Source: Pseudo-nitzschia pungens
Taxonomy: Eukaryota; Bacillariophyta; Bacillariophyceae; Bacillariales; Bacillariaceae
Reading direction: 5' to 3'
Assembly (NCBI GenBank): GCA_037355855.1
Contig: CM074766.1
Coordinates: forward strand, 3,596,001-3,660,000
DNA length: 64,000 nucleotides
Below are positions 2,713 through 55,204 of the stretch, piece after piece. The translations under genes were made by a program, and so were the position numbers. Within the stretch, counting starts at the first letter, position 1, and each line of letters opens with the position of its first letter. The notes beneath the pieces were generated by a model, which had not been told where the DNA came from, ran no database searches, and saw only the letters and a list, made by a program, of their open reading frames with translations.

Positions 2713-3296
2713 AGAAGTTACGTACGTAATAAAAATTAATTACGCAACCCAAAAACAACTATTTTTAGTTTCCTGGATCCCCCTTTAAAATTTTGAATCG
2801 TGGAGTCCTACATATTAATACGTAGATCACACATTGATATAATATGTAGGATATGTACGGTAAGTTCATATCATTTTGAAAAACTTAACGTGCCGCGCAT
2901 TGCGCGCGTTTTTCTATTTCCGACCGCTCCAGGATATGACACTGTAGCATTATTTTAATTCTAGTGACTTGCAGTAGTGAGTGATTCCCGAAATGATTTA
3001 TTTTATTTTTTTATTTTAAATTATATGCCCACATACTTTTTGGCGCACATAACGACGTGTTTTTATTTCGAACGACAGACAGGCGCCTAATAGGCCTATT
3101 TTGGAATTTGGAATCTTGTTACGAAAAACAAAAATTCTCTCTTTATTCCCTACCCGCCCCTCCACCAACTCATTTTTGCCTGCCGGCAATCTTGTGTTCT
3201 TTGTAATTTGTCGAAGTTGCTATCCTCAACAACAGAGGGGAGTTTGCTCTCCAATAGAAATTTTCTCCATTTTTTTTCGATCGATAAAACAATACC

Positions 3297-4478
3297 ATGT
3301 CTCTTGAGCTACTGTGCTACTACTACTACACTGAATATGCTCCGTCGTACAACAATCCAAAGCTATCCCCAGAAGACTGGAGGCTTAGAGATCGTAGATT
3401 GCCCCAAATTGCAATTCGAAGATACAATCTCTCCCCTTTCCTTTACATGTTCAGATCCGGGGACGAGCAAGCCCTCCTAAACTGCTGTGGCGTAAACCAT
3501 GAAGTCTTTAACGAATTGCTTGAACTGTTCCAGCCGGAGTATGATACGTACACATACGACGTCAATACGGGAATCATCCAGAAGTTGAAAAGGAAGTCAG
3601 GGAGAAAAAGGGAACTTGATGCAATTGGTTGCCTTGGACTCCTCTTGTATTGGTACCAAACCCGAGGATCAGCTGCGAGAGGAATAGGCTGGGCCTTTGG
3701 TGTAACTTCTACTCCAATGTACAAATGGCTTCGATTCGCCCGTAGGATTATGCTTTCAGTGTTGCAAACACACCCCCTTGCAAGAGTCAGTTTGCCAACT
3801 GCCGAAGAGGTTGAACTCTATATCCAAGCTCTTGCTGCCAAGTACCCAGTCTTAGGAGAATATAGGGTATGGGGCGCCTGTGATGGACTTAAACTTCCAT
3901 TCGAAAAGTCAACAAACTGGTTGGTACAGAACCGGTTCTACAATGGTTGGACCACTGGAACATTCATCAACTCTGTGCTTCTCTTTGCTCCAGATGGGAA
4001 AGTTCGAGGAGCAATATTAAATGGTCCGGGATGTTGGCACGACAGTGCAATATCTGACTATGGCTTATACGACAAGATGGAGAAGGTGTTCGATGATTTC
4101 AATGCAAGGGTAGTGGTCGACTCAGCTTTTCACAGACAAAGCAAAGACTTCCTTATCAAGAGTGGACAGCAAGATCCTGACACCCCAAGGGATGTGCTTC
4201 TCAACAACGCCGCGACTAGCTGTCGACAACTCTCTGAGTGGGGGATGCGACAGATCCAAGGGGGATTTCCACGACTGAAGGACAACATGTCCTTAGAACA
4301 CTTTGGAGAGAGGAAAGTCATACTCTATCTTGCAATCCTTCTATACAACTACCAAACAACAAGGGTGCAGATCAATACAATCCTCAACACTTTTATGAGC
4401 AAAACAAAAGGGTTCTTCTCTTATGAGTTGATTCCCACTGACACTGCGAACGACTTCTTTCATAGCCTTAATAATTAG
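3297..4478 (+). CDS. PIF/Harbinger transposase (DDE_Tnp_4-like)
   Basis: A 393-residue protein resembling HARBI1-type nucleases, expected to cut and rejoin the element ends. The catalytic triad is visible: Asp196 in WGACDGLKLP, Asp275 in VVVDSAFH and Glu314 in LSEWGMRQIQ, followed by the typical GGFPRLK segment. The N-terminal third has a helical region (KRKSGRKRELDAIGCLGLLL) that in this family forms a helix-turn-helix. The length is normal for the family and there are no frameshifts or stops. The first ATG (3297) gives MSLELL. It is convergent with the Myb-like gene at 4607-5650, with a 128 bp gap. The frame is intact, so the copy may still be active. Confidence 0.9.
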   Translation: MSLELLCYYYYTEYAPSYNNPKLSPEDWRLRDRRLPQIAIRRYNLSPFLYMFRSGDEQALLNCCGVNHEVFNELLELFQPEYDTYTYDVNTGIIQKLKRKSGRKRELDAIGCLGLLLYWYQTRGSAARGIGWAFGVTSTPMYKWLRFARRIMLSVLQTHPLARVSLPTAEEVELYIQALAAKYPVLGEYRVWGACDGLKLPFEKSTNWLVQNRFYNGWTTGTFINSVLLFAPDGKVRGAILNGPGCWHDSAISDYGLYDKMEKVFDDFNARVVVDSAFHRQSKDFLIKSGQQDPDTPRDVLLNNAATSCRQLSEWGMRQIQGGFPRLKDNMSLEHFGERKVILYLAILLYNYQTTRVQINTILNTFMSKTKGFFSYELIPTDTANDFFHSLNN

Positions 4479-4606
4479 TAATAGTAGCGAGTTTCGATTG
4501 AGTTAATTATTTTCGGGTTTTATTTTCAGGTTTTTGTTTGATAACTACTAAAATTAGCCTGTAGCCTTAACAACAAGCATACTTATGTTCCTGGCAAAGA
4601 AAAATT

Positions 4607-5650
4607 CTACAAGAGAGAGTCGTCGCTGTCAGTCTCGATACTGTCATGGCGCTTTCTCTTCTTGTTATTGGAAGCAGTACCAAGGGTAGTCCCTGTCGAC
4701 GCGACAGCTGCGACGGAGCTGATACTATTATTGTTACCGACAGTACCGGCAAGAATATTCTTGGAAAACTCCACAGCACCTGAGATACAAGCTTGGATAG
4801 TTTCGAGGATCATCTGTCGTTGCTCTTTAGCATCCTCGAGAGCCATCTGTCGTTGCTCTTTAGCATCCTCGAGAGCCATCTGTCGTTGCTCTTTAGCATC
4901 CGCGAGAGCCTGTTTCTGTAAGTTCACAGAGTTCTGAAGGACACTAAGGACATCCTCTTGATTGGTTCCTTTCTTGTGATACTGTCTTTCCGAAGTAGCT
5001 GTACTTGCCAAACCAGAAATGGAAGTAGTCCCCGGAATGGTAGTCCCTGGAGTCAAAACAGCTCGTGACTCTTCCGCGGGTGTATTGTCGGCATCCTCGA
5101 CGCTGTCTTCATCATTCTGGGAAGGTTGACAAAGAGGAGGTGGTGGTGGTGTGGTCTGGTTAGTAGAGACAAACTCTCCCCTTTCAAGATCAAAGACCTC
5201 ATCTTCTGGAAATCCAAGTTCGGCCCTCTCTCCAATCATACGTTTGATTCGCTTGGCCTCCTTTACATGCCATGGGCACAGTGGATCTCCTGTGGGGACC
5301 TGCTTCCTGTGGGAAGTGGAATATTTCCTACGAATGGAGTCAAGGTCTCTCCCTGGAAATTTCTCAGCATGTTTATCAACAACTTTCTGCCACTCATCTG
5401 GTCCAATTGGTAAGACCTCCTTCAACACACCGTACAAGTGCCTGAGTTCGACGTCGGTATAATTACCACACCCGGGTCTCCGGCCTGATCCGGCTCCTCC
5501 TGCTGGCATGTTGACTGTTATCGATTTTGGTATTTTTGGATTATGAGGAGGCGCAACTTTGCAACCACAAGAGGCACAGAGCAATGGCGGTGGTGTCGTT
5601 TCGGAAAGCGTTATCATTGCCGTGGTTATACACGCTAGGTTGGCCGCCAT
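4607..5650 (-). CDS. Myb/SANT-like DNA-binding partner of Harbinger transposase
   Basis: A 347-residue protein. Residues about 61-112 (GNYTDVELRHLYGVLKEVL, then a Trp in DEWQKVV and the basic DSIRRKYSTSHRK) look like a Myb/SANT trihelix domain. PIF/Harbinger elements usually encode such a protein, which helps the transposase bind the element ends and enter the nucleus. That role is inferred here from family knowledge and from its neighbour. The middle is Pro/Ser/Thr-rich. A coiled coil near residues 240-285 carries three tandem copies of an 11-residue unit, AKEQRQMALED, matching a 33 bp DNA repeat at about 4808-4910. The C-terminus has a basic NNKKRKRHD run, a likely nuclear signal. The start is the ATG at 5650. 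Confidence 0.8.
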   Translation of the reverse strand: MAANLACITTAMITLSETTPPPLLCASCGCKVAPPHNPKIPKSITVNMPAGGAGSGRRPGCGNYTDVELRHLYGVLKEVLPIGPDEWQKVVDKHAEKFPGRDLDSIRRKYSTSHRKQVPTGDPLCPWHVKEAKRIKRMIGERAELGFPEDEVFDLERGEFVSTNQTTPPPPPLCQPSQNDEDSVEDADNTPAEESRAVLTPGTTIPGTTSISGLASTATSERQYHKKGTNQEDVLSVLQNSVNLQKQALADAKEQRQMALEDAKEQRQMALEDAKEQRQMILETIQACISGAVEFSKNILAGTVGNNNSISSVAAVASTGTTLGTASNNKKRKRHDSIETDSDDSLL

Positions 5651-6360
5651 TTACGTCAGTGTTCTTCCGATGGATGGTGGATAGATGGTCGATGGATGGA
5701 TGGTCCTTAATAAAAGAGGTGCAGAAAAACAGCAACAACAGCAACAACAGAGGCAACACGGACTGTGGCAAAACACAGACTGGATGGGGGGGGAGTGTAG
5801 TAGACAGCAACAGCAAACTGAAAAAATGATAGACAAAAAAAGATACTCCAACTTGCCAAAAGAAACACATGTTTTTGTCGACCGTTGGTCCATTGACATC
5901 CGTTGGTCGATTGACATCCGTTGAGTGACTGAAATTTTGAGTCGGTTCTTGTTTTCTAGATTCCTTATAAATTTAAACAGGCGTTTTAAATCTGTCCGGG
6001 CGTTCAGATGCTTGGAGAGATTTTAAATTTTTCATACACAGAAATTTATATTTGTGTGTTTGAGCACATATCGATATGTGTGCCACGTCACAATTAATGT
6101 AATAAACCATGTGTTTATTTATTTCGGGAATCACTCAATAATTTGGCACAACATGCATATCTAAAATTATTGTGTCAACAATTGATGATTTTAATTTCTT
6201 ACTCTACCCCCTATCCATTTTGAGTTGCAGTACACTACTACAGTAATACTATATCAACTCCAACATCTGAAACCCCTTTTTATTTACCCACAGCCCCCTT
6301 TACACACAGAAACATAGTGCACCAATTGCGTGTTTTTCTATTTCTGACCGCTCCAGGGCT

Positions 6361-39840: not shown

Positions 39841-40198
39841 TGTCGTATCTCTGGAAACCAGAAAGAACGACCGAAGATAAAGAAGATAAAAATAGTATGT
39901 TTGATAATTTGTAGAATTAAGAATTATGATTGAAATTAACTAAAAGATAAAATAGAATGTTTCTCGTACACGTGTTGTTTTATCTTGATAGAAATCTGAT
40001 TAAAACAAACAGACATAGAGAAGCTCGGAATGGTCTTGAAGAACATAAAGAACAGTTCTTCAAGAACCTAAAAGTCATAGAGAACCTGAGATAAGGACAT
40101 TGGTCATAGAGAACCTTGAAGTTGATAGAAACATTGTTTTGTTTCTTAAATTATAAATAGTTTGTTTCTTGTGTGTCGTAGTTTTGGGACATACGGCA
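39841..40198 (-). repeat. 3' LTR of G2
   Basis: 358 bp with inverted ends TGTCGTAT and ATACGGCA (ATACGACA in the other copy). Read on the minus strand, a TATA-like ACTATTTATAATTT lies about 30 bases in. The purine-rich GAGAAGAAAGATAA just upstream (about 40199-40212) is the likely polypurine tract. Confidence 0.9.
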
Positions 40199-40242
40199 TT
40201 ATCTTTCTTCTCGAGATAGATCTTGTTGAACTTGGAAAGATC

Positions 40243-43200
40243 TCATGGGGAATGATAAGGCTTGATACGTCTGAGATTAATCCGTTCAATGATGTGCTCA
40301 TTGCGAAGGAAAGATACAGTACCATTGGTGTGGACTTGAGTGATGGTAAATGGGCCAATTGCTCTGGAACCAAGCGCATCAGCAGTCTTGTAGTTGAAAA
40401 TCATGATCTGATCACCAATGTTGTAGTCATGGTGTTTACGACGCTTGTTTTCTCTGAGCGCATTCTGATCAATAACAGATTGGCGTTTGGATCTGAGGAG
40501 CTTGATATCAGTGATGATAGGAATTGGAAGGAACATATCACGATGGAAGGCAATAGCACCAGGTGAAACACCAAATGTTTTATGCACAGTGCATCTGACA
40601 GCAAATTGAGCAGAGGCAAAAACATTGTCAATGAGATCAATGGCTTGTTGCAAATCCTGAGGAGGATTAGCATAAAGTTCAGTTCGCATGGCGGATTTCA
40701 TAGTATCATGCACACGTTCCAAAACAGCATTGGCTTGAGGGTTTTTGACTGTGGTTGGAACAGGCTTGATGTCAAGGTTAATAAGGTGAGATTGGAAATC
40801 AACATTGAGGTATTCAGAACCTTGATCAAAAATGCATCTGCTGGGTTTTGGATAGCGAGAAAGCCATGCATCATTTAATGCATAGATGGACATTTTACCT
40901 GAGGGATTCATCTGTGGAGCACGTTTGATTTCAAGCAAGTTAGTGCACATATCCATAATGGTGAAACCATTAAATTCAACATTACCAATATTTGGGATAT
41001 TGACGTTCCAAGGGCCAATGGTGTCAATTGCAATAGTTTCCCAAGGGATGGAAAGTTCTTCACGGGTTGCAAGATGCCCATAAGAAATGTGGGTATTTTT
41101 GTGGCGTTGACAAGCATCACAAGTCTTGCAATATTCAGCAACAGCATCCTTGAGGCCTGGAGAATAGATGAGCATGGAGATGGTTCTAGTCAAACGTTCA
41201 GCGCCTGCATGACCAAGGACATGATGATACCAGTTGATGGTGTCTTGGACAAGCGCTTTTGGAAGGACAATTTTGGTTTGGTTATTTTTAGAATAAACCT
41301 TGAGGTCAGTACCAGCGAAATCTTTGGTAGAATAATGCTTGGTGTTCTGGATGGAGGAATCTGCTGCTTGAGCCTTGGCGAGAGCATCAAAACGCAGAGG
41401 GTATGCAGGAAGATCTGCAGGGTAATTGATAAAAAGATCAGCAATGGAAAGATCGGAAGTGTCAACCTTGGAGATTGGCTGAGTGTTTGGATCTTTGGAA
41501 TCTTTGGAAGGAGAAACAGAAGGCAAACCCTGCTCCTCCTCCAAGGGGAGGCGCGAGAGGGCATCAGCCAGAATGTTGTCTTTGCCTTGGATGAACTTGA
41601 AAACAGGACTGAAATCTTCAAGGAGCATGCGCCAGGTCATAATTCTGTTGGATTGGAGATTTTGACGAGTGAGGTTTTCATGGTCAGTGTACACAATAAT
41701 AATGGCACCCCAAAGAATAGTCCGATATTCTTTGAAGACTTCCACAATACAAAGCATTTCCTTGTCAATGGTTGGATACTTGAGCTGAGTGGAAGTGAGC
41801 TTCCGGGAGAAGCATGCAACAACAATTTTACCATTTTGGATGATGACAGCACCAATTTGATAATCGGAGGCATCAGTGTAGACATCATAAGGGAGATTAG
41901 GATCAGGATATGTGAGGAGAATTTCCTCAGCAATCATGGTTTTGGCAGCTTTGAAGGCAGCAAGCAATTCAGGAGTTGGCTTGACCGGTCCACGGGCCTT
42001 GCCAGAGAGAGCAGTGAGAGGAGCCAAAATCTCAGCACGCTTGCGCCAATGAGCCCGATAGAAATTAATCATGCCAATGAAGGAACGCAGATCAGTGGTG
42101 TTTTGTGGAAAAGCAAGTTTCAAAATGGGAGCAATCTTGTTGGGATTTGGAAGAATGCCAGTGGTGGTGATGATATGACCAAGCCATGGAGCGCGTTGTT
42201 GGAACCAGTGGCATTTTGCAGGCTTAACAGAAAAGTTGTTGGCTTGCAGGATGGACAAAACAGTGGATACAGTTTTGCAGTGAGATTGAAAGTCAGGCGA
42301 GAAGATACCAATGTCATCAATATAGACTTCAACACTGTTGAGGTTGATAAAAAGGGATTCCATACAGCCTTGCGCCCAGCTTGGCGAGTTGAGGAAGCCC
42401 ATTGGAAGTCTGAGCAATCTGAATTTGCCAAAGGGAGTTACAAGCACACAGAGCCAAGTGGAAGGCTCATCCAATTTGAAGGTATGGAATTGCATGCTGA
42501 CATCAATAAGGGTGACATATTTGAACCCACGGCGTCGATGGAAGATATCTTGGATCTTGGGCAACGGATAGTGGAGCTTTTTGGTGACTTTGTTAAGCTC
42601 ACGAAAATCAGAAATGATTCTGCAGGAGCCATCCGGCTTGGGGACAACAAAGGTTGGCATACCCCATTCAGTTGCATAGCAGCGTTCAAGAATGCCAAGT
42701 TTTACCTGCCGAAGGAGTTCAGTTTTAACAGCGTCCTGCTGGTGTATAGGAATGCTGTAGGGTTGTTTGATATGGTATGGTTTTGCACCAGGTTGGAGTT
42801 CAATGTGGAATTCCTTGTGGGGGAAAATTCCAAGTTCTCTGTGAGAGAGACCTTCAAACAAAGGATGGTGTTTGGAAAGAATCTGAAGCAACTGGGATTG
42901 TTGGTCACTGGAAAGATGGGTTTGGTTGGAAACCAGTTCTTGCAAGTCAGTTTTCTCATATTTGGTTGCACTACTATCAACGTAGGATTGAGAGGTTTGC
43001 GCGATGTAGGCTTCAGCAATGGAGTAGGGTTCATTGCTGATAATCTTCTGAACCAAGGTTTGATTTGTGAAGTAGGATCTTGGATGGAAAGGCATGTCCT
43101 TATCAAACCAAGAAACAAGGGAGGCTTCAAAATCCATTTTGATGGCAAGATTCTTCATGGTGGCACGTCCAATAATCAAATCATAGTACATGTTGTCAAC

Positions 43201-43680
43201 CACAAAACAAGTCAAGTTCTTAACGCGCCTGGAATAAGAGAGTTCTGGAAACATAATGTCAGTAAGATAAACATATTCAGCGCATTTAAACTTGCCATTT
43301 GGAGTGTCCAATCCAATTGGAGATTCAAGAACATGGATGGGAATGTTCTTGGGGATGTGTTTTTTGGAGATTAATTCAAACGTGGAGCCACTATCAAAGA
43401 GGGTCTTGAAATAAAACTTCCCGGATATATCGTTGATGGATTTGCATGTAGTCAATGTAGTGGGAGCTAAATCAGTGCAAGGTTTTGAAATGAGTGGTTC
43501 AAATGGTTCAGGATTCGGATTTGGTGGAGCCGGAGATAAAACAATGGAAGGATCATGTGGATCAGCTGGAACTGTGAACACTTCAGCAAGAGGTTCAATG
43601 GTAGGTGGTTCAATTGGAAAGCGTTGGAGGTCCTGATGATAATAGGCTTCATCAATTTCAGCGTTGAATGGAATAGTAGG
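40243..43680 (-). CDS. pol: G2 Pol polyprotein
   Basis: The open frame runs from just after a TGA (43681-43683 on the plus strand) to 40243, 1145 codons; a GTG at 43581 is not a convincing start. Order: aspartic protease (LFDSGSTFELI), RT (VEVYIDDIGIF), RNase H (YDVYTDASDYQIGAV), integrase zinc region (VLGHAGAERLTR; CKTCDACQ), integrase core (IAIDTIGPW, CIFDQGSEYLN, NAVLERVHD) and a GPF module (RAIGPFTITQVHTNGTV). No chromodomain. The frame is -1 relative to gag. The first residues, PTIPFNAEIDEAYY, look like natural protein whereas the overlapping end of gag does not, so the switch belongs near 43680. Confidence 0.9.
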   Translation of the reverse strand, partial: PTIPFNAEIDEAYYHQDLQRFPIEPPTIEPLAEVFTVPADPHDPSIVLSPAPPNPNPEPFEPLISKPCTDLAPTTLTTCKSINDISGKFYFKTLFDSGSTFELISKKHIPKNIPIHVLESPIGLDTPNGKFKCAEYVYLTDIMFPELSYSRRVKNLTCFVVDNMYYDLIIGRATMKNLAIKMDFEASLVSWFDKDMPFHPRSYFTNQTLVQKIISNEPYSIAEAYIAQTSQSYVDSSATKYEKTDLQELVSNQTHLSSDQQSQLLQILSKHHPLFEGLSHRELGIFPHKEFHIELQPGAKPYHIKQPYSIPIHQQDAVKTELLRQVKLGILERCYATEWGMPTFVVPKPDGSCRIISDFRELNKVTKKLHYPLPKIQDIFHRRRGFKYVTLIDVSMQFHTFKLDEPSTWLCVLVTPFGKFRLLRLPMGFLNSPSWAQGCMESLFINLNSVEVYIDDIGIFSPDFQSHCKTVSTVLSILQANNFSVKPAKCHWFQQRAPWLGHIITTTGILPNPNKIAPILKLAFPQNTTDLRSFIGMINFYRAHWRKRAEILAPLTALSGKARGPVKPTPELLAAFKAAKTMIAEEILLTYPDPNLPYDVYTDASDYQIGAVIIQNGKIVVACFSRKLTSTQLKYPTIDKEMLCIVEVFKEYRTILWGAIIIVYTDHENLTRQNLQSNRIMTWRMLLEDFSPVFKFIQGKDNILADALSRLPLEEEQGLPSVSPSKDSKDPNTQPISKVDTSDLSIADLFINYPADLPAYPLRFDALAKAQAADSSIQNTKHYSTKDFAGTDLKVYSKNNQTKIVLPKALVQDTINWYHHVLGHAGAERLTRTISMLIYSPGLKDAVAEYCKTCDACQRHKNTHISYGHLATREELSIPWETIAIDTIGPWNVNIPNIGNVEFNGFTIMDMCTNLLEIKRAPQMNPSGKMSIYALNDAWLSRYPKPSRCIFDQGSEYLNVDFQSHLINLDIKPVPTTVKNPQANAVLERVHDTMKSAMRTELYANPPQDLQQAIDLIDNVFASAQFAVRCTVHKTFGVSPGAIAFHRDMFLPIPIITDIKLLRSKRQSVIDQNALRENKRRKHHDYNIGDQIMIFNYKTADALGSRAIGPFTITQVHTNGTVSFLRNEHIIERINLRRIKPYHSP

Positions 43681-44765
43681 TCAACCCAAACGTCTTCAGG
43701 TGGAGAAATAAAGGTGCAAACATGGCCATCACCAGAAGAAGGTGGATTGCTGGGAGCAGTTGTCACTGACGAGGTGCGCAAGCTGTTTACAGAGCTTGTT
43801 GCTGCATTTGCATCAGCTGAAGACCGATTGTTGTTGTTGGAAGGACCACGACGCTTGCCATTAGGATTGTCAATATTTTTGAAACATTGACTCCAAGTAT
43901 GGTTTTTACCAGGATGGATAGGACATGGGTCTGTATCTTTGATTCTGTTGGTGGAACTGGCGACAGAATTCTGCGAGGAATTGTTGTTGTTTGAACGCCG
44001 AGCGTTGTTGTTGTTGCCAGAACAACGGTTGTTGTTCCGATTTTTGCCAGTTTGTATGTTGGAGGATTTGTTGGCATTGTTGTTGCTGCTGTTGTTGTTC
44101 TTACGATTGGCCTTGGTACAATAACGTTCCATTCTTGTGATAATATCAGCAAGAGTATCATCATAGGGTGAGTGATGATCTTCATAAGAGTCTTTCCAAT
44201 CAGAGGGCATGGAGTCATAGATGAGGCTTTTAAAATCATTGTCAGGAATGATAGCATCTGCAGCAGTAGCTGGAGCACCAGGTAACAAGGGAAGGACCAC
44301 GTTGTTATGGTAAGTGACCAAGGAAACAAAGCTGGAAACAGTGATGGAAGTAGTTTTTTTGATCTGAGACAGAAATCGCTTGTGGTTTCGATAGACGTCA
44401 TCGTTGTTGGAGAACTTGAACCGAATGAAGGCGCAAACGTCTTCGTCAAAATGAGGCACCGTTTCAGTGTGTCCAATGATGTTGGTCTTCCACCAAGTCT
44501 TATCAGAATAGTTTTGTAGGATGTCTGGGAACTTGGTGGCGTATAGTTTGGGACCTGTTGTCCAACCCATGGTAGTACGCGCTTCATTGAATTCATAAAT
44601 AGAATGGAGCAATTGTAAGAGCGTGGACGTTGTAGTGATAAAGGTAACCTTTATCTTAGTTGTTTCAGTCTCAGTTTCAGTGGTTATAACACGTTTGTAC
44701 TCAGCCTTTTCAAGTTCTTCTGAATCGAAATCGAACTTAAATGGAAGGGGTGTAACAGAAGTCAT
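43467..44765 (-). CDS. gag: G2 Gag
   Basis: 432 residues from the ATG at 44765 (MTSVTPLPFKFDFDSEEL). The first 240 residues form a helical capsid-like region. About residues 240-300 are extremely Asn-rich. A Cys/His box, CPIHPGKNHTWSQC (CX2HX5HX4C), follows near residue 305 and presumably binds the element RNA. About 70 residues at the C-terminus, after EDVWVD, are low in similarity to normal protein and overlap pol. They are either the termination product of a frameshifting site or evidence for a one-base deletion. Confidence 0.85.
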   Translation of the reverse strand: MTSVTPLPFKFDFDSEELEKAEYKRVITTETETETTKIKVTFITTTSTLLQLLHSIYEFNEARTTMGWTTGPKLYATKFPDILQNYSDKTWWKTNIIGHTETVPHFDEDVCAFIRFKFSNNDDVYRNHKRFLSQIKKTTSITVSSFVSLVTYHNNVVLPLLPGAPATAADAIIPDNDFKSLIYDSMPSDWKDSYEDHHSPYDDTLADIITRMERYCTKANRKNNNSSNNNANKSSNIQTGKNRNNNRCSGNNNNARRSNNNNSSQNSVASSTNRIKDTDPCPIHPGKNHTWSQCFKNIDNPNGKRRGPSNNNNRSSADANAATSSVNSLRTSSVTTAPSNPPSSGDGHVCTFISPPEDVWVDLLFHSTLKLMKPIIIRTSNAFQLNHLPLNLLLKCSQFQLIHMILPLFYLRLHQIRILNHLNHSFQNLALI

Positions 44766-45547
44766 GGTTGTTGCTGGGTACTTGGTGAGTATGTGTAGGT
44801 ATATATGTGTTGGTATATATGTGTTGGTATATATATATAAGCGAGAAGGTATTGGTGGATACCTAAGACAACTTGTAATTAAGGGAAGTAGTTGTCGAGT
44901 GTTGTCGGAGAACCTTAAGCTTGTTTGCTTAAGTATGAAAAATAAACTTAAAAATAAATGACCGAAGGTATGAATGACCGAAAGTAGGTATGATGGTAGG
45001 TAACCCTAACCTTTTTGAAGGTATGTATTAAATTGTAACCGTGACACGATCCACTCCATATGCGCACCATGCGCAAAATAGTTTTCTACAGGGTTTCCAG
45101 TACTGCTTGTAAACAAGCAGCAAACACAACAAGACAGCAACGTCGATTCCCCGACAAGATTGCTGTCATCACTTCTTTAGTTTAACTCTGATTTGAATAC
45201 CTTGATACCTACATCCTGCTCCCTGAGCAACTCCCTGTAGAACTACAAATCTAGGATCTAACTGACTGTGCCAAGTGGTAGTAGTTAGAATAGATCCGGC
45301 CAACTGTCTTCCCCTTTGGTCGTAGTGGTGAATCCGAGACTATCGATGGAACAGACCGGCACCTCAACCGGTTTGCATGCCTTTGCCATTACAACCAACA
45401 ATATCTCCAAGCTTGCTCCTTATTCCCTGAGCTAAGTTCAGCTACATTTTTACAGTATGATATGGTAGTGGGTAACCTTAACCTTTGGAGAATATGGGTA
45501 CGTGTTGAGGTACCGTTTAAATGGAATGAGTAGGTTAAGTGGTATGT
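44766..45547 (-). other. G2 leader, part between gag and the C2 insertion
   Basis: No gene. A (TA)n and GTGTTGGTATATAT repeat lies at 44803-44842 just upstream of gag. The remaining leader and the 5' LTR are at 54740-55204 beyond C2. The C2 target, ATGT, is at 45544-45547. Confidence 0.7.
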
Positions 45548-46462
45548 TATGAAGATATTCATGGTGGTGCTATGATCTGTGCTAGCAAGGCTCCTGTGTA
45601 GAAGGGCTACTGGGTCTACAGTCAGCAACACCCAGTAACTGACTAACAGGTGCTGAGCTGAATGCTAGAGCTGTGTGCTAATTGCTAGCATACAGGCTCA
45701 GCAACAGGCTTAGCAACAGGCTTAGCAACAGGCTTAGCAACAGGCTTAGCAGCAGGCTTAGCAGCAGACCTATCCTGTCTAGTATTGCTAGCAGAGTTTA
45801 CTAGGGTCGCCGCGTACGATTTGTACCAATCGTACGTACCCCGAGTAAAGCACCTTTATGGTGTAGCTAAATGCTACAGGGTTAGGGATGCTAAGGCTAC
45901 GAGATACTGGAAGATGCTAACCTACCATGATACCAATGCTAAGATATGATGCTACCGCCGGGGTCGGGTCATTGGTGTACAATATGTACCATGACCGCAT
46001 ACCCGGCCCAAACAGTTACCCAACGCGCTAGCATACGATCCGGTCTAATTAATCGGAGATACCTACGATACTCCGATACGGTACGCTACTCGTAGGATAC
46101 AGTACCAGAGCTACAGGAGTTCTGTTATTATACGAGTTAGCGAATCGATGTCACGATACACGATACAGAGCTGAGCGCTTTGGCTCAGCTCCCTTTTATT
46201 CACTCTTTCTTTTATGCTCTAAAATAAACACACCTATCATGCCCTCCTTTCGATCGATTCCGATGTACCTCTAGGGAAGTGCCTTGTATTGCTTGAGCGT
46301 ATGCAATAGACCTTGAACAGTCCACTGTAGACTCACGATTTGCCAGGACTTTATGTATTATTATTGTTAAGGCTTTTCCTTATTTACAGACCAGTACGAG
46401 TCGAACTTATCTACAAGCCGATTAAGTTCCCAGAAGATCGCTGACGAGCGAATATCAACACA
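45548..46462 (+). repeat. 5' LTR of C2
   Basis: 915 bp, TATGAAGATATTC to AATATCAACACA, six CAGGCTTAGCAA-type units. It belongs to a different subgroup from the C1 LTRs: for example, the AAGCGAGCTAGC part of the C1 LTR is missing here and the stem GAGCTGAGC has a different loop. Confidence 0.95.
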
Positions 46463-47529
46463 GTTTATCAGACCCACCGCTCGACCCACTACGAACCGGG
46501 ACGCCGGCTAGAGCGCGTGATGAAATCCAGCTGGCTGATCACCACTGGCATCCATGCCTACACTTGGATGTAAAACATCAGCTTATTGGACCAACGGCTG
46601 ACATCGCGAGACCCCTGATGTTAATGGGGGGCCCTTCCCCAGCAGACAGACGCGCAAACCGACCGGAGCCCACACATCCACCTCTGGGGTCTATTGGTAC
46701 AGAGTACAATAGCTGAGCATCATGGTGGCACCATGGAGGCTCGATCCGGTGGGGAAGGAGCAAGCAGGACGTGGAGAAAGCAGCGTCCATGATTCCCTGT
46801 TATTTTACAGGATTCAAGGGGACGTTTGCAACGGATGGAACCACACTGGAAAAAGAAAAGGCTTTCGTGGAGACAGACCACCACGTACTTTCCAGTGATG
46901 ACAGTGTCCAGCAGAACAAGGACATGACGTCAGGACCATCCAACAAATGAGGCGCAGACAACCTCAACGAGGCGCAGACAACCTCGAATCTGCTATACCA
47001 TCGATTTTGATTTTAGCCAAGGGAATTTGGAATCAGACAAGCCAAGAACCCTGAGATCTGTCATATCTCAGAATCAAATCGATTGGTCCAGAGCAGATCA
47101 GAAAGACCGAAAGAATTCTTCTCTTTTGGTAACCAACCATCCAACCATCGAATCGGAACCATCGATGTGGATACTTTTTCTAGACGTCGGCACGAAACTG
47201 TTGACACGAAACGCTGACGTGATACCTTTTCTTGATACCTTTTCTTTCGGAATTGTCGACACGGAACAATCGACAACCCACTGTCGATACGGAACAATTG
47301 ACAACCCACTGTCGATACGGAACAATCGACACGGACCATCGATTCCATCGATTTGAATGTTCTTCTTTTCGAATGACGGCAACACGGAATCGACAAGTAG
47401 CCTCCTTCTTTTTCTTTTGGTTGACATCGATACAGACCTTCGATCGACAACTTGGATGGAAACAGTCCCCACCACAAAAGAATTTGGTTTAGAAACTGAA
47501 GCAAATTAGGTAATCAAAGCAAGACAACC
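46463..47529 (+). other. C2 leader, no gene
   Basis: Begins GTTTATCAGACCC as in C1. Three tandem copies of the repeat with core CACTGTCGATACGGAACAAT lie at about 47254-47335 (two in C1). ACCTCAACGAGGCGCAGACA is locally duplicated near 46950-46985. Confidence 0.7.
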
Positions 47530-48438
47530 ATGGCCAAGCAAAATAGAAGCCAAGCCGCTGCAGCCGCCGCCGGAGCCGGCGCTGCTGGAGATGCCCCTGG
47601 AACTGGTGGAGGCGCCGTCCCTGGAGGCGATGTCCCTGGAGGCAACGCTCCCCCACTTGGAGCTGTACCCGGAGCCGGAGCCGGCGCTCCCCCGCCTGGA
47701 GCTGTTCCTGGAGTCGCTGGCGCCGCCCCCGCCGGAGCGCCTGGAGTCCCTCCTGTTGGAGCGCCTGCTACGTTTGGAGTCTCCAGAGTCCAACCAGAAC
47801 CGAACCTCGACATCCAACCTCGATCTGAGATGCTCCTGCTTGCTGCTACTGAGGAACTGAGAGCGATGCGCAACGAGAATGCAGCTCGGATTGCTGCTGA
47901 GGCTGCTGCTGATGCTGCCGCCGCTCGTGCTCCTGCTGCCGCTCCTGCAACTGCAGGAGCTATTCCTGATATCCTCCAAGCTGATAGTATATACAGCGAA
48001 ATCGACGACGACGGACGCATGTTTCCTCTACTGGACGAGATTATTGATCATGAGAAGGATGGATCCGCCGTCAGGAAGCCAGATGCCACAATCACCAACA
48101 AGTACGGTCGTAAAGTTCCCAAGCCTACTACGAGAGGATGGCGATTGCTCGTTAGTTGGAAAGACGGAACTAAATCCTGGTGTAAGTTGAGTGATCTGAA
48201 AGAGTCCTTCCCTGTACATACCGCCGAGTACGCTGTATCCGCCAAGATTTCAGAACAGCCAGCGTTCCGATGGTGGATCCACCACGTACTACGGAGGAAG
48301 AAGCGAATTCTCGAGGCCACCACACGAAACAAGTACTGGGATAGGACACACAAGAAGACGGCAGCAGCGAAGACGACGGCAATAACAGCAGGAACCAGGC
48401 TGCAAACAGAGAGTGATTTCATCATCCAGCCATTGTAA
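47530..48438 (+). CDS. C2 chimeric Gag-linker protein
   Basis: An open frame of 302 residues from ATG (MAKQNRSQAAAAAAG). Residues 1 to about 154 are the Ala/Gly/Pro-rich gag N-terminus. At about 47982 it joins, in frame, to the integrase-RT linker of pol (SIYSEIDDDGRMFPLLDEII), which includes the chromo-like stretch GWRLLVSWKDGTKSWCKLSD and WWIHHVLRRKKRIL. The end (KKTAAAKTTAITAG) is unrelated to C1. It may be the only sizeable product of C2. Whether it is translated is unknown. Confidence 0.6.
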   Translation: MAKQNRSQAAAAAAGAGAAGDAPGTGGGAVPGGDVPGGNAPPLGAVPGAGAGAPPPGAVPGVAGAAPAGAPGVPPVGAPATFGVSRVQPEPNLDIQPRSEMLLLAATEELRAMRNENAARIAAEAAADAAAARAPAAAPATAGAIPDILQADSIYSEIDDDGRMFPLLDEIIDHEKDGSAVRKPDATITNKYGRKVPKPTTRGWRLLVSWKDGTKSWCKLSDLKESFPVHTAEYAVSAKISEQPAFRWWIHHVLRRKKRILEATTRNKYWDRTHKKTAAAKTTAITAGTRLQTESDFIIQPL

Positions 48439-49378
48439 TTTTGCAGCCTGTATGTTTTCTAGACATCGAATCTGAGCGTTTATGACGTTCGACGGCTGAA
48501 GCGCCTTTATGTTTGCAAGTATTTGCAAAAAGTATCTCTGAAACCACCAGTATCCTCAACAAGAAGCCCATTTTTGCTCGTGACAGAAGAAAAGGTGTCA
48601 TCGGTAGTGCCCGACGACTGGTCTACGAGAAAGATTACTGCCGTCCCTGCCAGAGCGCCTGGAGTTCCTCCTGTTGCTCCTGCGCGCTCGATGGATTGAT
48701 GTATTCCGAGGAATCGATACCAACGAATTGACGTAGCAACCGAATCGATAGCGACGGATCGATAGCAGCAGACGCTAGACGCGAGGATTCGCAGCAGACG
48801 CTAGATACTAGACGCGATTTGCAGCGGACGCTAGATGCAGCGTTGACCGATTGATCCTCTCTCCCTGAAGAACAGCCGGGACAACGATGTCTATGCCTGT
48901 CCTTGCGGCGAAAGAGCAGTAGCAGCAACAAGAGGACAACATCGATGCCCTGGCAGGAGAGAAGCCTACAGTAGCTAAAAGGATTGGCGGGAGCAAAGGA
49001 ACAAACGCAGCATGGACGTGTAGCGTAAAGCGCAGCTTGGACCCGCAGCGCATTGGAATTAAACAGGGCGTTAAACTGAAGGCGATCTAACGTAAGGAGC
49101 AATGTGACGTCACAGCGCTCGTGACTTACAAGAATAGAGGATACAGATGGTAGATATGAGGATGATTGATACGAGACATGACCAAAGGCATGTGTGCCTA
49201 GTACACAGCGGACCTGTGTAAAGCACGGGCAGAATGCTATGAGCGAGAGCAACGACGCTCGTTGATAGACCTGCTCGATCCGTCTCAGCCCTAATGTATC
49301 AAATGAATGTACCAGCACGATCTGCAAGGCCTGCAGAAAGCAACTGTGAGTTGGGTAGCCACGCGAACATGACTTTTA
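48439..49378 (+). other. C2 interior, rearranged, no gene
   Basis: A patchwork of short pieces. Recurrent words are GCAGCAGACGCTAGA-like and GATCGATAGC-like at about 48760-48850. Reading frames present in the opposite direction have no recognisable content. Confidence 0.5.
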
Positions 49379-50591
49379 TTGGAAGTCCAAGTTACCTCCC
49401 ATGTGGGTGTTCATCCCTTCTCTCCCGGATATGAACCAGTGGAGGACATTCCGATCGGGACGTGTTTCACATTGGGCAAGGTATGGTTGATTGATTTCCA
49501 TGAGGCTTTATATTTCGGGGACAGGCTACAGCACAGCCTGATATGTCCCAACCACATTAGGGATGGTGACCACAACCGTGTGAACGAGACGTCGAGACAG
49601 CTTGATTCCAAGTTATCCCATACAATCCAGAGTACACTGCTGATGAAGAGGCCCCGACACTAGATATTAAGCTCCTGCTTAATGGTGTTGTTTCGGACGC
49701 CTCACGAGAAAGGAAATGCGGACCTGTGACCATGTAATTGCTACCAGGAATAAACCCCTATTCCCCCGACTCGACCAAGTTTGTTTCTGCCGTACAGTAA
49801 CAGCAGCAACAACAGACCAAGGTTAATACCCCGACAGGCAAAGTGCCTACAGCAGGAACCGAACCTACATCGATTGAGAACCAGCTCACGCTTGATGGGG
49901 TCGTATCCTATTTAAGCATGAGATGGCTACATGCGATCACGTCGTTGCAACCCGCGACTTTCCTTGGGATCTGAAGAACAAGAAGTTCGAGCAAGCCGAA
50001 GAAGAGACGCCCATCGCGTCCGCGCCGACCAAGAACTCCAACAAGCGCAAGCTGGAGCCCGTCGAAACACGGTCCAACTTCAGCCCCCATCTGTACGATA
50101 AGCCTCTTCGGAGCGACGAGCTGCTCCTACCACAGCATGATTGCTATGAGAAGTACAAGCTGCGGAGCCTTCAGCAACTCTGTACCCGCCGTGATCTGAC
50201 CCCATGTGCGATCGCATCCGACTCTCGTCTGGATGCGCGGCTCCCTTCTCTCTTTTCGGGCGATTCCTTGAAGACTTGCGGGGACGATGTAGACGAGGAT
50301 GCAGTACCAAGTCTTACAATCAACGCCCTGCATACTCCGTTGTACGAGCGCGCCTACACCTATGGACGCGAGCGATTTGAACTGGATCCCCGCTGTAGGG
50401 ATTCTGTCATCCGTTTACAACCATGTTCGATGGGACGATGCAGTCGAACCAGTCGATCCCGAGCTCTATACGATCTCCAGACGACGGCAGGAGCAATGAC
50501 GCTCTTTGATGGACCTGTATTCAGGACGCCCATCTGCCGTGAGTACATTGTACTAAGAACCACTGCTGAAGAGCCAGTAAGCAGCGGATAG
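49379..50591 (+). pseudogene. C2 protease/pre-integrase remnants
   Basis: Pieces corresponding to C1 at about 22080-22900: VHPFSPGYEPVEDIPIGTC and FHEALYFGDRLQHSLICPN (from about 49400), then after foreign sequence MATCDHVVATRDFPWDLKNK, EPVETRSNFSPHLYDKPLRS and DLTPCAIASDSRLDARLPSL (49923-50270). The protease LDSHADT motif and the integrase catalytic core are absent. Confidence 0.75.
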
Positions 50592-51655
50592 CGCAGGAGC
50601 GCAAGTACTAGTAGAAGACCAAGCAAGACACCGCATCAGATAGCGGGGACAGAATGGCGTGGTACTCCCGTCCTCATGGTGAATGCTGACGTTAGTGTTG
50701 CAGTACTACCAAGACCTGTGGGGACTTGGCCTCTTATGGCGTCCCCTGCTCGAGAGCAAGGAGCTCCTGGGACTTACAAGACTCCATGGAATAAGGTTGT
50801 CAGCAAAAAAAAAAAAAACCATATCCACCCGACCTTCATCCAGCCACGATGCCCCTTCCAGAATCGAGCGGAGCTCAGCATCGGCCATATCAGCAGAAGC
50901 ATCCGCAAGAAGACAGCCCGCAAGCGATTCCCCAAGCGCCTGTGGGCCTATTGCGGAGAGCCGCATGGCTTCCAGCGATCCTACGACGATGGGACGAACG
51001 CCGTTCGGGATGGTACATGGGTACATGCCAGACATATCTCTGTATCAAGCCAATGGTATGATTTCGTCTATTGGATTGACCTAGGACGCTGACTTGGACC
51101 ATGCGGAAGGATGTTTAGCGGAAATGATTGTCACTGAACCCTTACTGCCAGTAAGCACTAACACTGTTAGAGTTGTCACCGAAGCAGACTGGAGAGCCCA
51201 TGACATCGAGAGAGCAATGGGCCCGTTTGAGCAGTCGAATCCAAGAACGGGGACAAGCTTGAGAACACTGATGTTCAGTTTCAAGAGGCATATCCCCAAA
51301 CCCCAGAGGAACTATTTGAGAACCACCGGGATAGTTGGCCAGACGATTCAGCTACCATGGCAGAACCAGAAGCCCTTATTCCAGATGTGGATGAGCTCGT
51401 ACCCTATGGGGACACTTATGATGAGTATATTGGTAACAACGTGATGATCCAGAAGGGCGACGAACGACTACGGTGTGTTGTGAAGAATCGCTCTGCTGAT
51501 CTTAATGGCAATCCGATTGGCAAGAGGAATGATAACCCTATCCTCGATACCCGAATGTATGACTTGCAGCCTACTGATGGTACGGTGGAGCAGTACACTG
51601 CAAATATCATTGCTGAGAGCATGTTCAGTTCTACCAAGGAGCCCTCAGTATAAGG
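50592..51655 (+). pseudogene. C2 integrase and linker remnants
   Basis: Corresponds to C1 at about 23400-24120 and on into the linker. REQGAPGTYKTPWNKVVSK is followed by an A12 run that breaks the frame, then FQNRAELSIGHISRSIRKK, then frame-shifted TPFGMVHGYMPDISLYQ, and finally YDEYIGNNVMIQKGDERLR and NPIGKRNDNPILDTRMYDLQ to a stop near 51653. Several frame changes and deletions mean it makes no integrase. Confidence 0.75.
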
Positions 51656-52852
51656 ACGCGTCAAGGAATGTACAACAGAGTGCGATGCCAATGCTACGCA
51701 AACATACCAAGGAGCCGCTACTGGAGTGGCATGTTACAGTTGGCGTGTCACAGCTCTGTACGGCGATTCATTGAAGACTCGCGGGGACAAAGTTGATGTT
51801 ATCCAAGAAACAAGCCTGTATATGTGAAATGATACCGATACGGGGACATGCTGTCCCTGTTACAGGTTGAATACTAGTAGGCTGAACAATGGAAGCGCAA
51901 CGGAATTGCTTGCAACATGAAAGATAGCGGCGTTGCGCACAGAACAGACGATTACAAGCAGCATCGAAGTTGACACGAGACGGGCAGCTAGTCGAGCGCA
52001 TGGTAAATGCTCGTACGAAATGTAAGACATAGCAGCGCCTCAGGTACTTCGGATGATGTTGAATGGCTACGACGATCCAATCGCCACGAGTTACTCTACG
52101 GATGACGCTGACGCCAATCGCCACGAGTTACTCTACGGATGGGACTGACGCCGATTGCTACGAGTTACTCTACAATTGACGCTGGTTCCCACGAATTGTT
52201 ACTCTATGGACGGCGCCAACCTCTACGATAGATTGGATGTATCGATTGAATGTATCGATCGAAGAATATTCAATTCAGTCTAACGCGAGGACCGAACTAT
52301 TCAGTCCAGAGACCAGTATTGAAAATGTGGCATCGAAATTGTTATGTTCGATACCATGAACACAGAACTGCTGTTCCGGGGACAACCAAACGATTGAATC
52401 GGCCAACCCTATTACAGGAGCGGCATGGTCTTGAATATACGATCTACGAATCAGGAGCTGCTGTTTGAAAGCCAGTACTACAGGACAAGCGGCACGATGC
52501 ACGATTCGAGATTGACGACAACCAGTTAAACGATAGCCGACAAGAAGTGACAAGCGATCCCATGCAGAATATTGTAACAGTTGCACTGTTTTGGGGACGA
52601 CAGCTTGCTCACGATCGAACGAATGAACGAGTTGCAGAAGCAGCGCGTTTTGGATCTATGGTGACAGTTCGACAAGCATCCCTACGAAGACTGAGTGAAC
52701 AGTGGCAGTTATACTGTTCCGGGGACAGCTTGCTCACGATTGAACAAACTGAACAGGAAGCAGCGCGCTTCGAATCTCGAATTATGTCCAAGCAGGACAT
52801 GAGCTGGACGAACAGTCGGATGTGCAAGAACAGCTGAATCGACCTCTCAGCC
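51656..52852 (+). other. C2 interior, short duplicated segments
   Basis: No gene. GCCACGAGTTACTCTACGGAT-like units recur three times at 52079-52175 (unit core CACGAGTTACTCTACGGATG). A segment starting GGGGAC, then AGCTTGCTCACGATTGAAC, then GAAGCAGCGCG recurs at about 52590-52650 and 52720-52770. GGGGAC occurs unusually often. RT is missing where C1 would have it. Confidence 0.6.
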
Positions 52853-53035
52853 GAGTCATGGTAACCACGACGAGTCTGTTATCAAAAATATCACCAGGCC
52901 GGAGAGTCCATGCAACAAGAAACATAACAGCTTTCCTTACCACAAGGCGTGCGAGTCTATTGCTGCTGGCACAACCCGAATTGCAAGGGAGCTTGACGAG
53001 ACCAATATTGCTGACTTATTCATCAAACTGTTGAA
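52853..53035 (+). pseudogene. C2 RNase H tail remnant
   Basis: Matches the end of C1 pol (about 33955-34140): in one frame KNITRPESPCNKKHNS, then CESIAAGTTRIARELDETNI, then LFIKLLNGPALKAHCARCM and a stop. The catalytic part is absent. Confidence 0.8.
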
Positions 53036-53824
53036 TGGTCCAGCTTTGAAAGCCCACTGCGCTCGATGCATGTAATAATTGCCCCAGCTGCACTATTTGA
53101 GGTACTTTGATCTATGGCAAGCAGTGTGGATGCAATCTGTTATTTCGACGTCCCGGGTACAATGGTTCCGGGGACCGTAATGCGATTTCGATTTTCGAAA
53201 GCAGCAGATTTCGATTACGGATTTCGATTACGATTTTATCGACCGCTTCGATTTCGATTACAAGTTCTTCAATCGTTACGATTTCGATTACGAATGGTTC
53301 AAGCGCAACAGATTCGATTTCGATTGCAACCTTATTCCGATTGCAACTTTGTTTCGGACGCAATCCTTTCGGGCGCAATCTATTTCGAACGCAACCTCTT
53401 TTCGAGCGCTTCGATCTTTGACTATATTCCGTTTCGATCCGACCTGATCTTATGTTATATGTTATGTATTTGGGAGTCTCCGGTACACCGGTTCCGGGGA
53501 CTATAAACTTGAAAGACAATAGGCTGATTGATCTGTCCTTGTATGTGTCAAGGAATCGGACCAAGGGCAAAACGTCCTGTGGTCCAACCCCCTTTTTTTT
53601 TGAACTACGAATCAGCCGGGCCTCTGATAGAAGAACTGCAATATTTGGTGCAGTTTGATCTCTGACAAGTTATATGGAAGCATCCCTGAATTCTGTTATG
53701 ATCCATCCAAGTGTCCTGGTACAACAAGCAAGAGTATTGGTGTCCCCCTGGGAGTATCTGTTTCCGGGGACTGGTATAGTTGCTCAGTTGCTCATACAGG
53801 ACCACTGGCATGAATCACGGGGAC
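53036..53824 (+). other. C2 3' untranslated region
   Basis: The same organisation as C1 34158-34854: GATTTCGATTTCGATTACGA-type array at about 53170-53430, then CCGGGGACTATAAACTTGAA, ending with CACGGGGAC at the LTR. Confidence 0.7.
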
Positions 53825-54739
53825 TATGAAGATATTCATGGTGGTGCTATGATCTGTGCTAGCAAGGCTCCTGTGTAGAAGGGCTACTGGGTCTACAGTC
53901 AGCAACACCCAGTAACTGACTAACAGGTGCTGAGCTGAATGCTAGAGCTGTGTGCTAATTGCTAGCATACAGGCTCAGCAACAGGCTTAGCAACAGGCTT
54001 AGCAACAGGCTTAGCAACAGGCTTAGCAGCAGGCTTAGCAGCAGACCTATCCTGTCTAGTATTGCTAGCAGAGTTTACTAGGGTCGCCGCGTACGATTTG
54101 TACCAATCGTACGTACCCCGAGTAAAGCACCTTTATGGTGTAGCTAAATGCTACAGGGTTAGGGATGCTAAGGCTACGAGATACTGGAAGATGCTAACCT
54201 ACCATGATACCAATGCTAAGATATGATGCTACCGCCGGGGTCGGGTCATTGGTGTACAATATGTACCATGACCGCATACCCGGCCCAAACAGTTACCCAA
54301 CGCGCTAGCATACGATCCGGTCTAATTAATCGGAGATACCTACGATACTCCGATACGGTACGCTACTCGTAGGATACAGTACCAGAGCTACAGGAGTTCT
54401 GTTATTATACGAGTTAGCGAATCGATGTCACGATACACGATACAGAGCTGAGCGCTTTGGCTCAGCTCCCTTTTATTCACTCTTTCTTTTATGCTCTAAA
54501 ATAAACACACCTATCATGCCCTCCTTTCGATCGATTCCGATGTACCTCTAGGGAAGTGCCTTGTATTGCTTGAGCGTATGCAATAGACCTTGAACAGTCC
54601 ACTGTAGACTCACGATTTGCCAGGACTTTATGTATTATTATTGTTAAGGCTTTTCCTTATTTACAGACCAGTACGAGTCGAACTTATCTACAAGCCGATT
54701 AAGTTCCCAGAAGATCGCTGACGAGCGAATATCAACACA
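53825..54739 (+). repeat. 3' LTR of C2
   Basis: 915 bp. I found no difference from the 5' LTR in the blocks compared side by side. Followed by ATGT and then by the rest of the G2 leader. Confidence 0.95.
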
Positions 54740-54843
54740 ATGTACCACTGGATAATTAGTATCCGGATAAAGATACTAGGTTAAGAATTATAATCAATTC
54801 AAAGAATTGACAATGGTGGTCGTGTAATCGACTGTAATTACAG
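54740..54843 (-). other. G2 leader, LTR-proximal part, with 12 bp palindrome
   Basis: The palindrome CTGTAATTACAG at 54832-54843 abuts the 5' LTR with no spacer, in the position of a primer-binding site. No TGG tRNA site is visible. The rest of the leader lies at 44766-45547. Confidence 0.7.
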
Positions 54844-55204
54844 TGTCGTATCTCTGGAAACCAGAAAGAACGACCGAAGATAAACAAGAAGATAAAAATA
54901 GTATGTTTGATAATTTGTAGAATTAAGAATTATGATTGAAATTAACTAAAAGATAAAATAGAATGTTTCTCGTACACGTGTTGTTTTATCTTGATAGAAA
55001 TCTGATTAAAACAAACAGACATAGAGAAGCTCGGAATGGTCTTGAAGAACATAAAGAACAGTTCTTCAAGAACCTAAAAGTCATAGAGAACCTGAGATAA
55101 GGACATTGGTCATAGAGAACCTTGAAGTTGATAGAAACATTGTTTTGTTTCTTAAATTATAAATAGTTTGTTTCTTGTGTGTCGTAGTTTTGGGACATAC
55201 GACA
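54844..55204 (-). repeat. 5' LTR of G2
   Basis: 361 bp, TGTCGTAT to ATACGACA on the plus strand. It differs from 39841-40198 by a CAAGAAG/GAAG length change and one base near the end. Followed by the AGTTA duplication. Confidence 0.95.

Follow-up and report, generated by a model that had tools for sequence, protein, structure and literature searches.

A Gag start fused to a displaced Pol piece in a mobile, recombinant Ty1/copia-like element of the diatom Pseudo-nitzschia pungens

C2 is a retrotransposon with long terminal repeats (LTRs), 9192 bp long (45548–54739), in a 64,000-nucleotide stretch of Pseudo-nitzschia pungens DNA (CM074766.1, positions 3,596,001 to 3,660,000; hereafter the window). 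It contains an open reading frame (ORF), ORF1, in which the start of Gag is fused to a piece of Pol whose native site lies between integrase and reverse transcriptase (RT). We consider it likely that C2 belongs to a group of CoDi-like Ty1/copia elements that is mobile but non-autonomous and whose members recombine in a swarm while the ORF1 fusion frame is kept. An earlier note on this DNA had named a junction at 47982 and had read C2 as a pre-scrambled element copied in by an intact relative. The junction is real, with the displaced piece beginning at 47980, and it sits within the intact ORF1; neither ORF1 nor the mosaic sharing of the interior figured in that note. The genome that we searched comprises 66.9 Mb, with the window on its contig C9. 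Features are collected in Table 1, and el coordinates are window positions minus 45547.

Results and Discussion

Aligned base by base, the two LTRs of C2 gave 0 differences over 915 bp, and the 4-bp target-site duplication (TSD) is exact (ATGT/ATGT), both just as the earlier note had them; C2 is recently inserted. A search with 47700–50100 returned a run of places matching across the junction. The earlier note had proposed looking for the same junction at several loci, and a search found it, counting the window, at 10 places, in each of which ORF1 is open. Ten further non-autonomous elements, fetched with their flanks, show the same block order as C2 with different gaps. LTRs and TSDs were measured in ten complete elements, C2 included; C2_623 was not among them, since the stretch fetched for it yielded a 5' LTR alone, apparently as the result of an insertion nested in it. 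All ten carry an exact 4-bp TSD, in nine different sequences, and 0 substitutions separate the LTRs in nine of the ten pairs (in two of these a 12-column gap does occur); C2_867, fetched without flanks, has identical LTRs as well. C1_641 and C10_290 are nearly the same in their interiors and differ in their TSDs, and are hence separate insertions. From the shared junction, the substitution-free LTR pairs and the exact TSDs that the elements have of their own, we conclude that the rearranged form is mobile: it predates the C2 insertion and is itself replicated. The core idea of the earlier note, replication in trans of an element that was already rearranged, is well supported.

The Gag start of ORF1 aligns to aa 1–139 of a 646-aa Gag, the remainder of which is not in ORF1, and is modelled as disordered except for a helix at residues 99–131. 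An ORF of this build was present in all 12 fetched non-autonomous elements (C2, the ten further ones and C2_867). Its second half is the same piece as in C2 (type A) in 8 of the 12, and in the other 4 a Pol piece from behind the RT core (type B); one type B element, C3_282, has a stop inside the region matched by the other type B copies. Genome-wide, all 10 listed type A places are open with no stop in the match, window included (best 130 of 357 candidates scored). For type B (best 125 of 514 candidates scored), at least 23 places span the junction, which comes in two forms; 20 of the 23 are without a stop, or 21 of 24 if one partial match is included. At the place C1:6773289 a longer Gag start is joined to the same Pol piece at a different junction, in one open frame. 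By eye, the junctions carry 2–3 shared bases, as template switching would leave. The group's own block behind ORF1 (48447–49280) was placed 39 times among the best 40 of 149 candidates (rows joined, one inverted pair counted once), and 27 of these places adjoin an open ORF1 (10 type A, 17 type B), while 1 adjoins an ORF1 with a stop. The inverted pair, at C1:5006720-5008298, consists of two copies of the block lying head to head, about 0.2–0.3 kb apart. Pfam gave no match in three C2 ORFs. A protein-database search with ORF1, in which 7987 candidates were scored, yielded one protein, RVT_2-bearing and matching 41% of the query, and no chimeric relative was listed.

The type A Pol piece models as chromodomain-like. 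The predicted structure reaches a pLDDT of ~96–98 over ORF1 residues 171–260, and Foldseek ranks 1–4 for this model are chromoshadow or HP1 chains. Further rows are chromo or chromoshadow domains, or complexes bearing them; the fold scores of the model are middling. No chromodomain Pfam profile was found in ORF1 or in the 41 members of sequence set A1, and a sequence search of solved structures with the Pol of one partner gave no match.

We next compare C2 with the 1517-aa pol of its autonomous sibling C6_548. Four matches follow the native order (aa 86–124, 155–389, 520–825 and 1450–1517), aa 820–944 is the piece displaced into ORF1, and aa 1–85, 390–519 and 945–1449 are missing. The last of these gaps includes the RT (RVT_2, aa 1004–1196); the first two we take, by eye from sequence motifs, to be the protease and most of the integrase core. 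The observation of the earlier note that C2 has no RT and no integrase core is confirmed for the RT and, on this reading, for much of the core, the end of which remains at 50748–51628. The remnant at 50748–51628 has 8 frameshifting indels and 2 in-frame stops, and it ends at the point where the displaced piece would natively start.

Because RT and integrase parts are missing and the presumed primer-binding site (PBS) and polypurine tract (PPT) agree with those of the autonomous siblings, we infer trans-mobilisation by helper proteins. The PBS letters are identical in every one of the 10 complete elements of the non-autonomous group and in 11 of the 12 others compared, and the PPT stretch is common to C2 and the autonomous siblings; C1_473 differs by 1 base in each. 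Most likely, C2 RNA would be packaged, reverse transcribed and integrated by the proteins of these siblings, with matching LTR, PBS and PPT.

The partner set comes from 15 stretches fetched with LTR relatives at their centre and counted as 13 elements, and from the window element C1. Among the 13 there is one non-autonomous element, C2_867 (L013); the remaining 12 measure 9.9–10.1 kb. Of these, 9 have long open Gag and Pol frames, and C1_473, C7_442 and C2_331 have one or more frame breaks. Both partner Pol proteins that were scanned carry an RVT_2-type RT (PF07727, E 3e-15) and neither gave an integrase profile; the order of integrase before RT was read by eye. PF00665 was found in 9 of the 41 members of set A1, the partner not being one of them. 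Homologues of Pol are entries named 'Psemu1', which we take to mean Pseudo-nitzschia, and Fragilaria crotonensis. The LTR tree interleaves autonomous and non-autonomous kinds, with some weak nodes (support of 0.56 at the node of C2), and the LTRs of the non-autonomous elements differ from those of C2 by ~6–17%. Gag and Pol lie in the same frame with one TGA between them in 11 of the 12 copies (L009–L012, L014–L023), a candidate for stop-codon readthrough.

Constraint on the frame of ORF1 is clear. The captured piece, compared in 27 pairs of 8 type A copies, differs by 3.5 substitutions per 100 bp and by 0 indels. Segments compared with it, which are more diverged (4.2–18.4 per 100 bp), show indels that are not multiples of 3 at the following rates per 100 substitutions: 12 in the non-coding el 3300–3660, 22 in the 5' untranslated part, 17 and 26 in LTR segments, and 3, 6 and 8 in three Pol remnants of the group. 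Outside ORF1 the Pol sequence of these elements has decayed, with as many as 12 frameshifting indels in a single remnant.

Constraint on the residues is moderate to weak. Pairwise dN/dS of the captured piece ranges from 0 to 0.56 among the 8 type A copies and is 0.07–0.09 against one autonomous copy; maximum likelihood (ML) gives an omega of 0.33 for 10 copies (2dlnL 13.1, p 0.0003). Plain counts are 24 synonymous and 22 nonsynonymous changes for type A (p 0.0015) and 25 and 21 for type B (5 copies, p 5e-5), and the segregating type A alleles absent from 13 autonomous copies are 18 synonymous and 23 nonsynonymous (p 0.03). We then sorted alleles absent from 12 autonomous copies (type B over 113 codons) by their spread. 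Alleles of one lineage are 13 synonymous/22 nonsynonymous in type A and 8/21 in type B (together 21/43), those in two or more lineages are 6/1 and 7/0 (together 13/1), and fixed ones are 11/5 and 3/0. The difference between one-lineage alleles and those in two or more lineages gives Fisher p values of 0.034 for type A, 0.0008 for type B and 4e-5 for both. We read this as loose constraint over many cycles with unselected errors in recent copies, as expected of trans-mobilised elements. In autonomous copies the type B segment is far more constrained (44 synonymous, 2 nonsynonymous, 10 copies). Strong protein-level selection on type B in the non-autonomous group is unsupported in view of its one-lineage changes. 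A first type B count against one autonomous copy (p 5e-9) was set aside, as many of its alleles are shared between copies or possibly come from unsampled donors; type B copies differ from each other at 13–32 of 339 positions and from one autonomous copy at 21–38.

Several results speak against a group that keeps ORF1 for its protein. The open-frame counts are biased toward open frames, since a disrupted ORF gives a poorer match and the counts cover the best-scoring matches. Some of the synonymous excess, especially in type B, may stem from donors outside the sample. Conservation is stricter for the frame than for the residues, and the second half of ORF1 can be either of two unrelated Pol pieces. 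These last two points would fit ORF1 being open for the sake of translation and not of its product, with an open frame close to the 5' end shielding or routing the RNA, or with the Gag start acting as an RNA packaging signal. We hold this to be somewhat unlikely, given the synonymous excess in the more widely shared alleles and the ML omega of the type A piece; moreover, a 302-aa ORF leaves ~6 kb of 3' part. Also on the opposing side, one-lineage changes are near neutral, constraint on the Gag block is not significant, with an omega of 0.77 (p 0.31) that does not differ from 1, and 11 of the 39 block places have neither a type A nor a type B ORF1 among the matches listed (matched by hand). Such data would be expected of a purely parasitic mosaic, in which the fusion ORF is a by-product of recombination, open only because of the youth of the copies, in elements that move in trans with nothing selecting ORF1. 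This appears unlikely to us: non-coding and remnant parts of the very same copies are rich in frameshifts per substitution while the captured piece has none, and the changes that reach two lineages are almost all synonymous.

The interior of C2 is a patchwork, recombined over many rounds. A scan in 250-bp windows, limited to the fetched elements, places C2 nearest to autonomous siblings for the greater part of the LTR's first 700 bp (98–99%; in the 5' LTR this holds to about el 700, after which the non-autonomous C7_341 is nearest), then to C7_341 and C10_290 at el 626–1500 (96–100%). The Gag start (el 2001–2250) is closest to the type B element C2_270 (98%), while the captured piece is closest to C7_341 (97–99%). 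There follow C3_282 at el 3001–3250 (99%), C10_290 at 3376–3750 (99%), C7_341 at 3876–4750 (99–100%), C2_867 at 4876–5125 (98%) and C2_862 at 5876–6125 (96%); over the rest the best match changes, down to 30%. Four maximum chi-square breakpoints were found (el 703–707, 2264–2292, 2990–2998 and 3818–3824) for donor pairs picked after the window table, and at each of them 0 out of 1000 permutations gave so high a value. The word "scrambled" in the earlier note, if taken to mean one fixed unit, therefore does not describe an interior that varies from copy to copy.

Template switching during reverse transcription is the most likely mechanism of this patchwork. The exchange would have occurred before or during reverse transcription, because the LTR pairs are substitution-free and both identical LTRs of C2 share the donor switch near el 705. 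Gene conversion or ectopic recombination among DNA copies already integrated would account for C5_430, whose LTRs are only 92.3% identical within an exact 4-bp TSD, as conversion of one LTR would give; an unusual template switch is the other option for this copy. As a general source of the patchwork we find it quite improbable, since 9 of 10 LTR pairs are free of substitutions despite their distance from the LTRs of C2 and since the switch stands in both of the latter. That an intact element was inserted and then rearranged in place is practically excluded, refuted by the junction at 10 places, by the exact TSDs that the complete copies have of their own and by the identical LTRs.

The LTRs of the 10 complete elements start with TATG and end with CACA or CGCA, and thus do not begin with TG. 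C2 is nested inside a Ty3/gypsy-like element on the minus strand (39841–55204) and is therefore the younger insertion. The repeats of this host (39841–40195 and 54844–55201) are 99.2% identical, with a likely 5-bp TSD, AGTTA, found by reading; its part at 40243–43578 gives RVT_1, RNase H and integrase zinc-binding profiles above the cut-offs. Just downstream of C2, 55717–57086 is filled with dense degenerate tandem repeats, the copies ~71–83% alike. Within C2, the block at 52200–52860 has its best match in other non-autonomous copies, 98% over 505 bp.

Table 1. Features of element C2 in window coordinates.
Feature	Position	Strand	Remarks
Target-site duplication ATGT, left	45544–45547	.	
5' LTR, 915 bp	45548–46462	+	0 differences from 3' LTR
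Presumed PBS region	46463–46489	+	From position and sibling agreement
ORF1, fusion of Gag start and displaced Pol piece	47530–48438	+	302 aa
ORF1 part 1, Gag start	47530–47979	+	~150 aa
ORF1 displaced Pol piece	47980–48354	+	Pol aa 820–944; chromo/chromoshadow-like fold in model
Non-autonomous group's own block	48447–49280	+	Hardly matched by sampled autonomous copies
Pol remnant	49475–49591	+	Aa 86–124
Pol remnant	49883–50484	+	Aa 155–389; 2 frameshifting indels
Pol remnant, end of integrase core and C-terminal part	50748–51628	+	Aa 520–825
Block with little or no match in sampled autonomous copies	52200–52860	+	Common to other non-autonomous copies
Pol remnant, C-terminal end of pol	52872–53073	+	Aa 1450–1517
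Presumed PPT stretch before 3' LTR	53810–53824	+	From position and sibling agreement
3' LTR	53825–54739	+	
Target-site duplication ATGT, right	54740–54743	.	

Known systems share the principle. C2 stands apart from LARDs by its ORF, from TR-GAG by having no more than the Gag start and, in the parts of the literature covered here, from Athila and Quinta by the joining of a Gag start to displaced Pol pieces. LARD and TR-GAG elements are, like C2, bounded by LTRs and without RT (PMC6022998, PMC5963040). C2 keeps LTRs and the presumed PBS and PPT, and its 9192 bp exceed the lower length limits of 2–4 kb given for LARDs; these are, in the covered parts of the same sources, without a coding domain, unlike C2 with its part of Gag and its Pol piece. 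The earlier note had seen in C2 a counterpart of the LARD type; in the sense of an interior that codes for nothing, this is ruled out by the 302-aa fusion ORF, whose frame is open at all 10 listed type A places. With TR-GAG elements C2 has in common the lack of RT and of an intact integrase, but these carry a GAG domain where C2 has the Gag start only (PMC6022998, PMC5963040). The pol-less Athila lineages of Arabidopsis are non-autonomous LTR elements which recombine with distant relatives and whose intact ORFs are reportedly under purifying selection, hybrid proteins also being mentioned (PMC2410132); according to the covered part of this report they keep gag and env, in contrast to the C2 group with its fused Gag start. 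RLG_Quinta and the autonomous RLG_Cereba of wheat form, as here, a partner pair sharing PBS and LTR ends; Quinta encodes Gag and a domain of unknown function, with two gag variants swapped by recombination, whereas the C2 group is copia and has a truncated Gag start with a chromodomain-like piece of the helper's own Pol (PMC11302176, as far as covered).

In diatoms, CoDi-A Ty1/copia elements are described with a putative chromodomain at the integrase C-terminus (PMC2774666). This is the native place of the displaced piece of C2: pol aa 820–944, ahead of the RT from aa 1004, agrees in position with CoDi-A, the chromo identity being taken from the model only. A displacement to Gag is unmentioned in the covered part of that source. 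Copia-N1_Ec32 and Copia-11_Ec32 of Ectocarpus are copia families whose one ORF is homologous to gag, at least in part, as in C2, but the covered part of their description, unlike our data on C2, makes no mention of a Pol fusion (PMC12477816). Nor was a Gag–chromodomain fusion found in the covered parts of the literature, including few subscription papers, on diatom copia and CoDi elements, LARDs, TR-GAGs, copia chromodomains and gag-bearing non-autonomous elements.

Conclusion

In summary, C2 is recently inserted and is likely a member of a mobile group of non-autonomous, CoDi-like Ty1/copia elements. Each copy is a patchwork through repeated recombination among the members of the swarm, which would swap LTR, Gag start and ORF1 cassette between lineages. 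Throughout this shuffling one frame stays mostly open, that of a Gag start with a Pol piece, either chromodomain-like (type A) or from behind the RT core (type B). It is possible, and we suggest it tentatively, that the ORF1 protein helps the RNA of its own element, for example by joining Gag assemblies or, in type A, by contacting chromatin. One may speculate further, although this is doubtful, that these short proteins are modular, with the Gag start as an address into the helper particle and the second half as an exchangeable effector taken from the helper Pol. If so, the type A chromodomain would tie the particle or the pre-integration complex to chromatin and the type B piece would bind the helper RT, making the group a parasite's parasite with swappable cassettes. 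In this copia family of the diatom type, an LTR element lacking enzymes can be mobile and still retain a Gag–Pol fusion frame, for which there are two alternative cassettes, and different donors can supply one stretch after another of a single new copy. With this group one can ask, in a natural setting, what coding capacity a non-autonomous element requires, and whether integration changes in site or efficiency once a chromodomain-like piece has been transferred to Gag.

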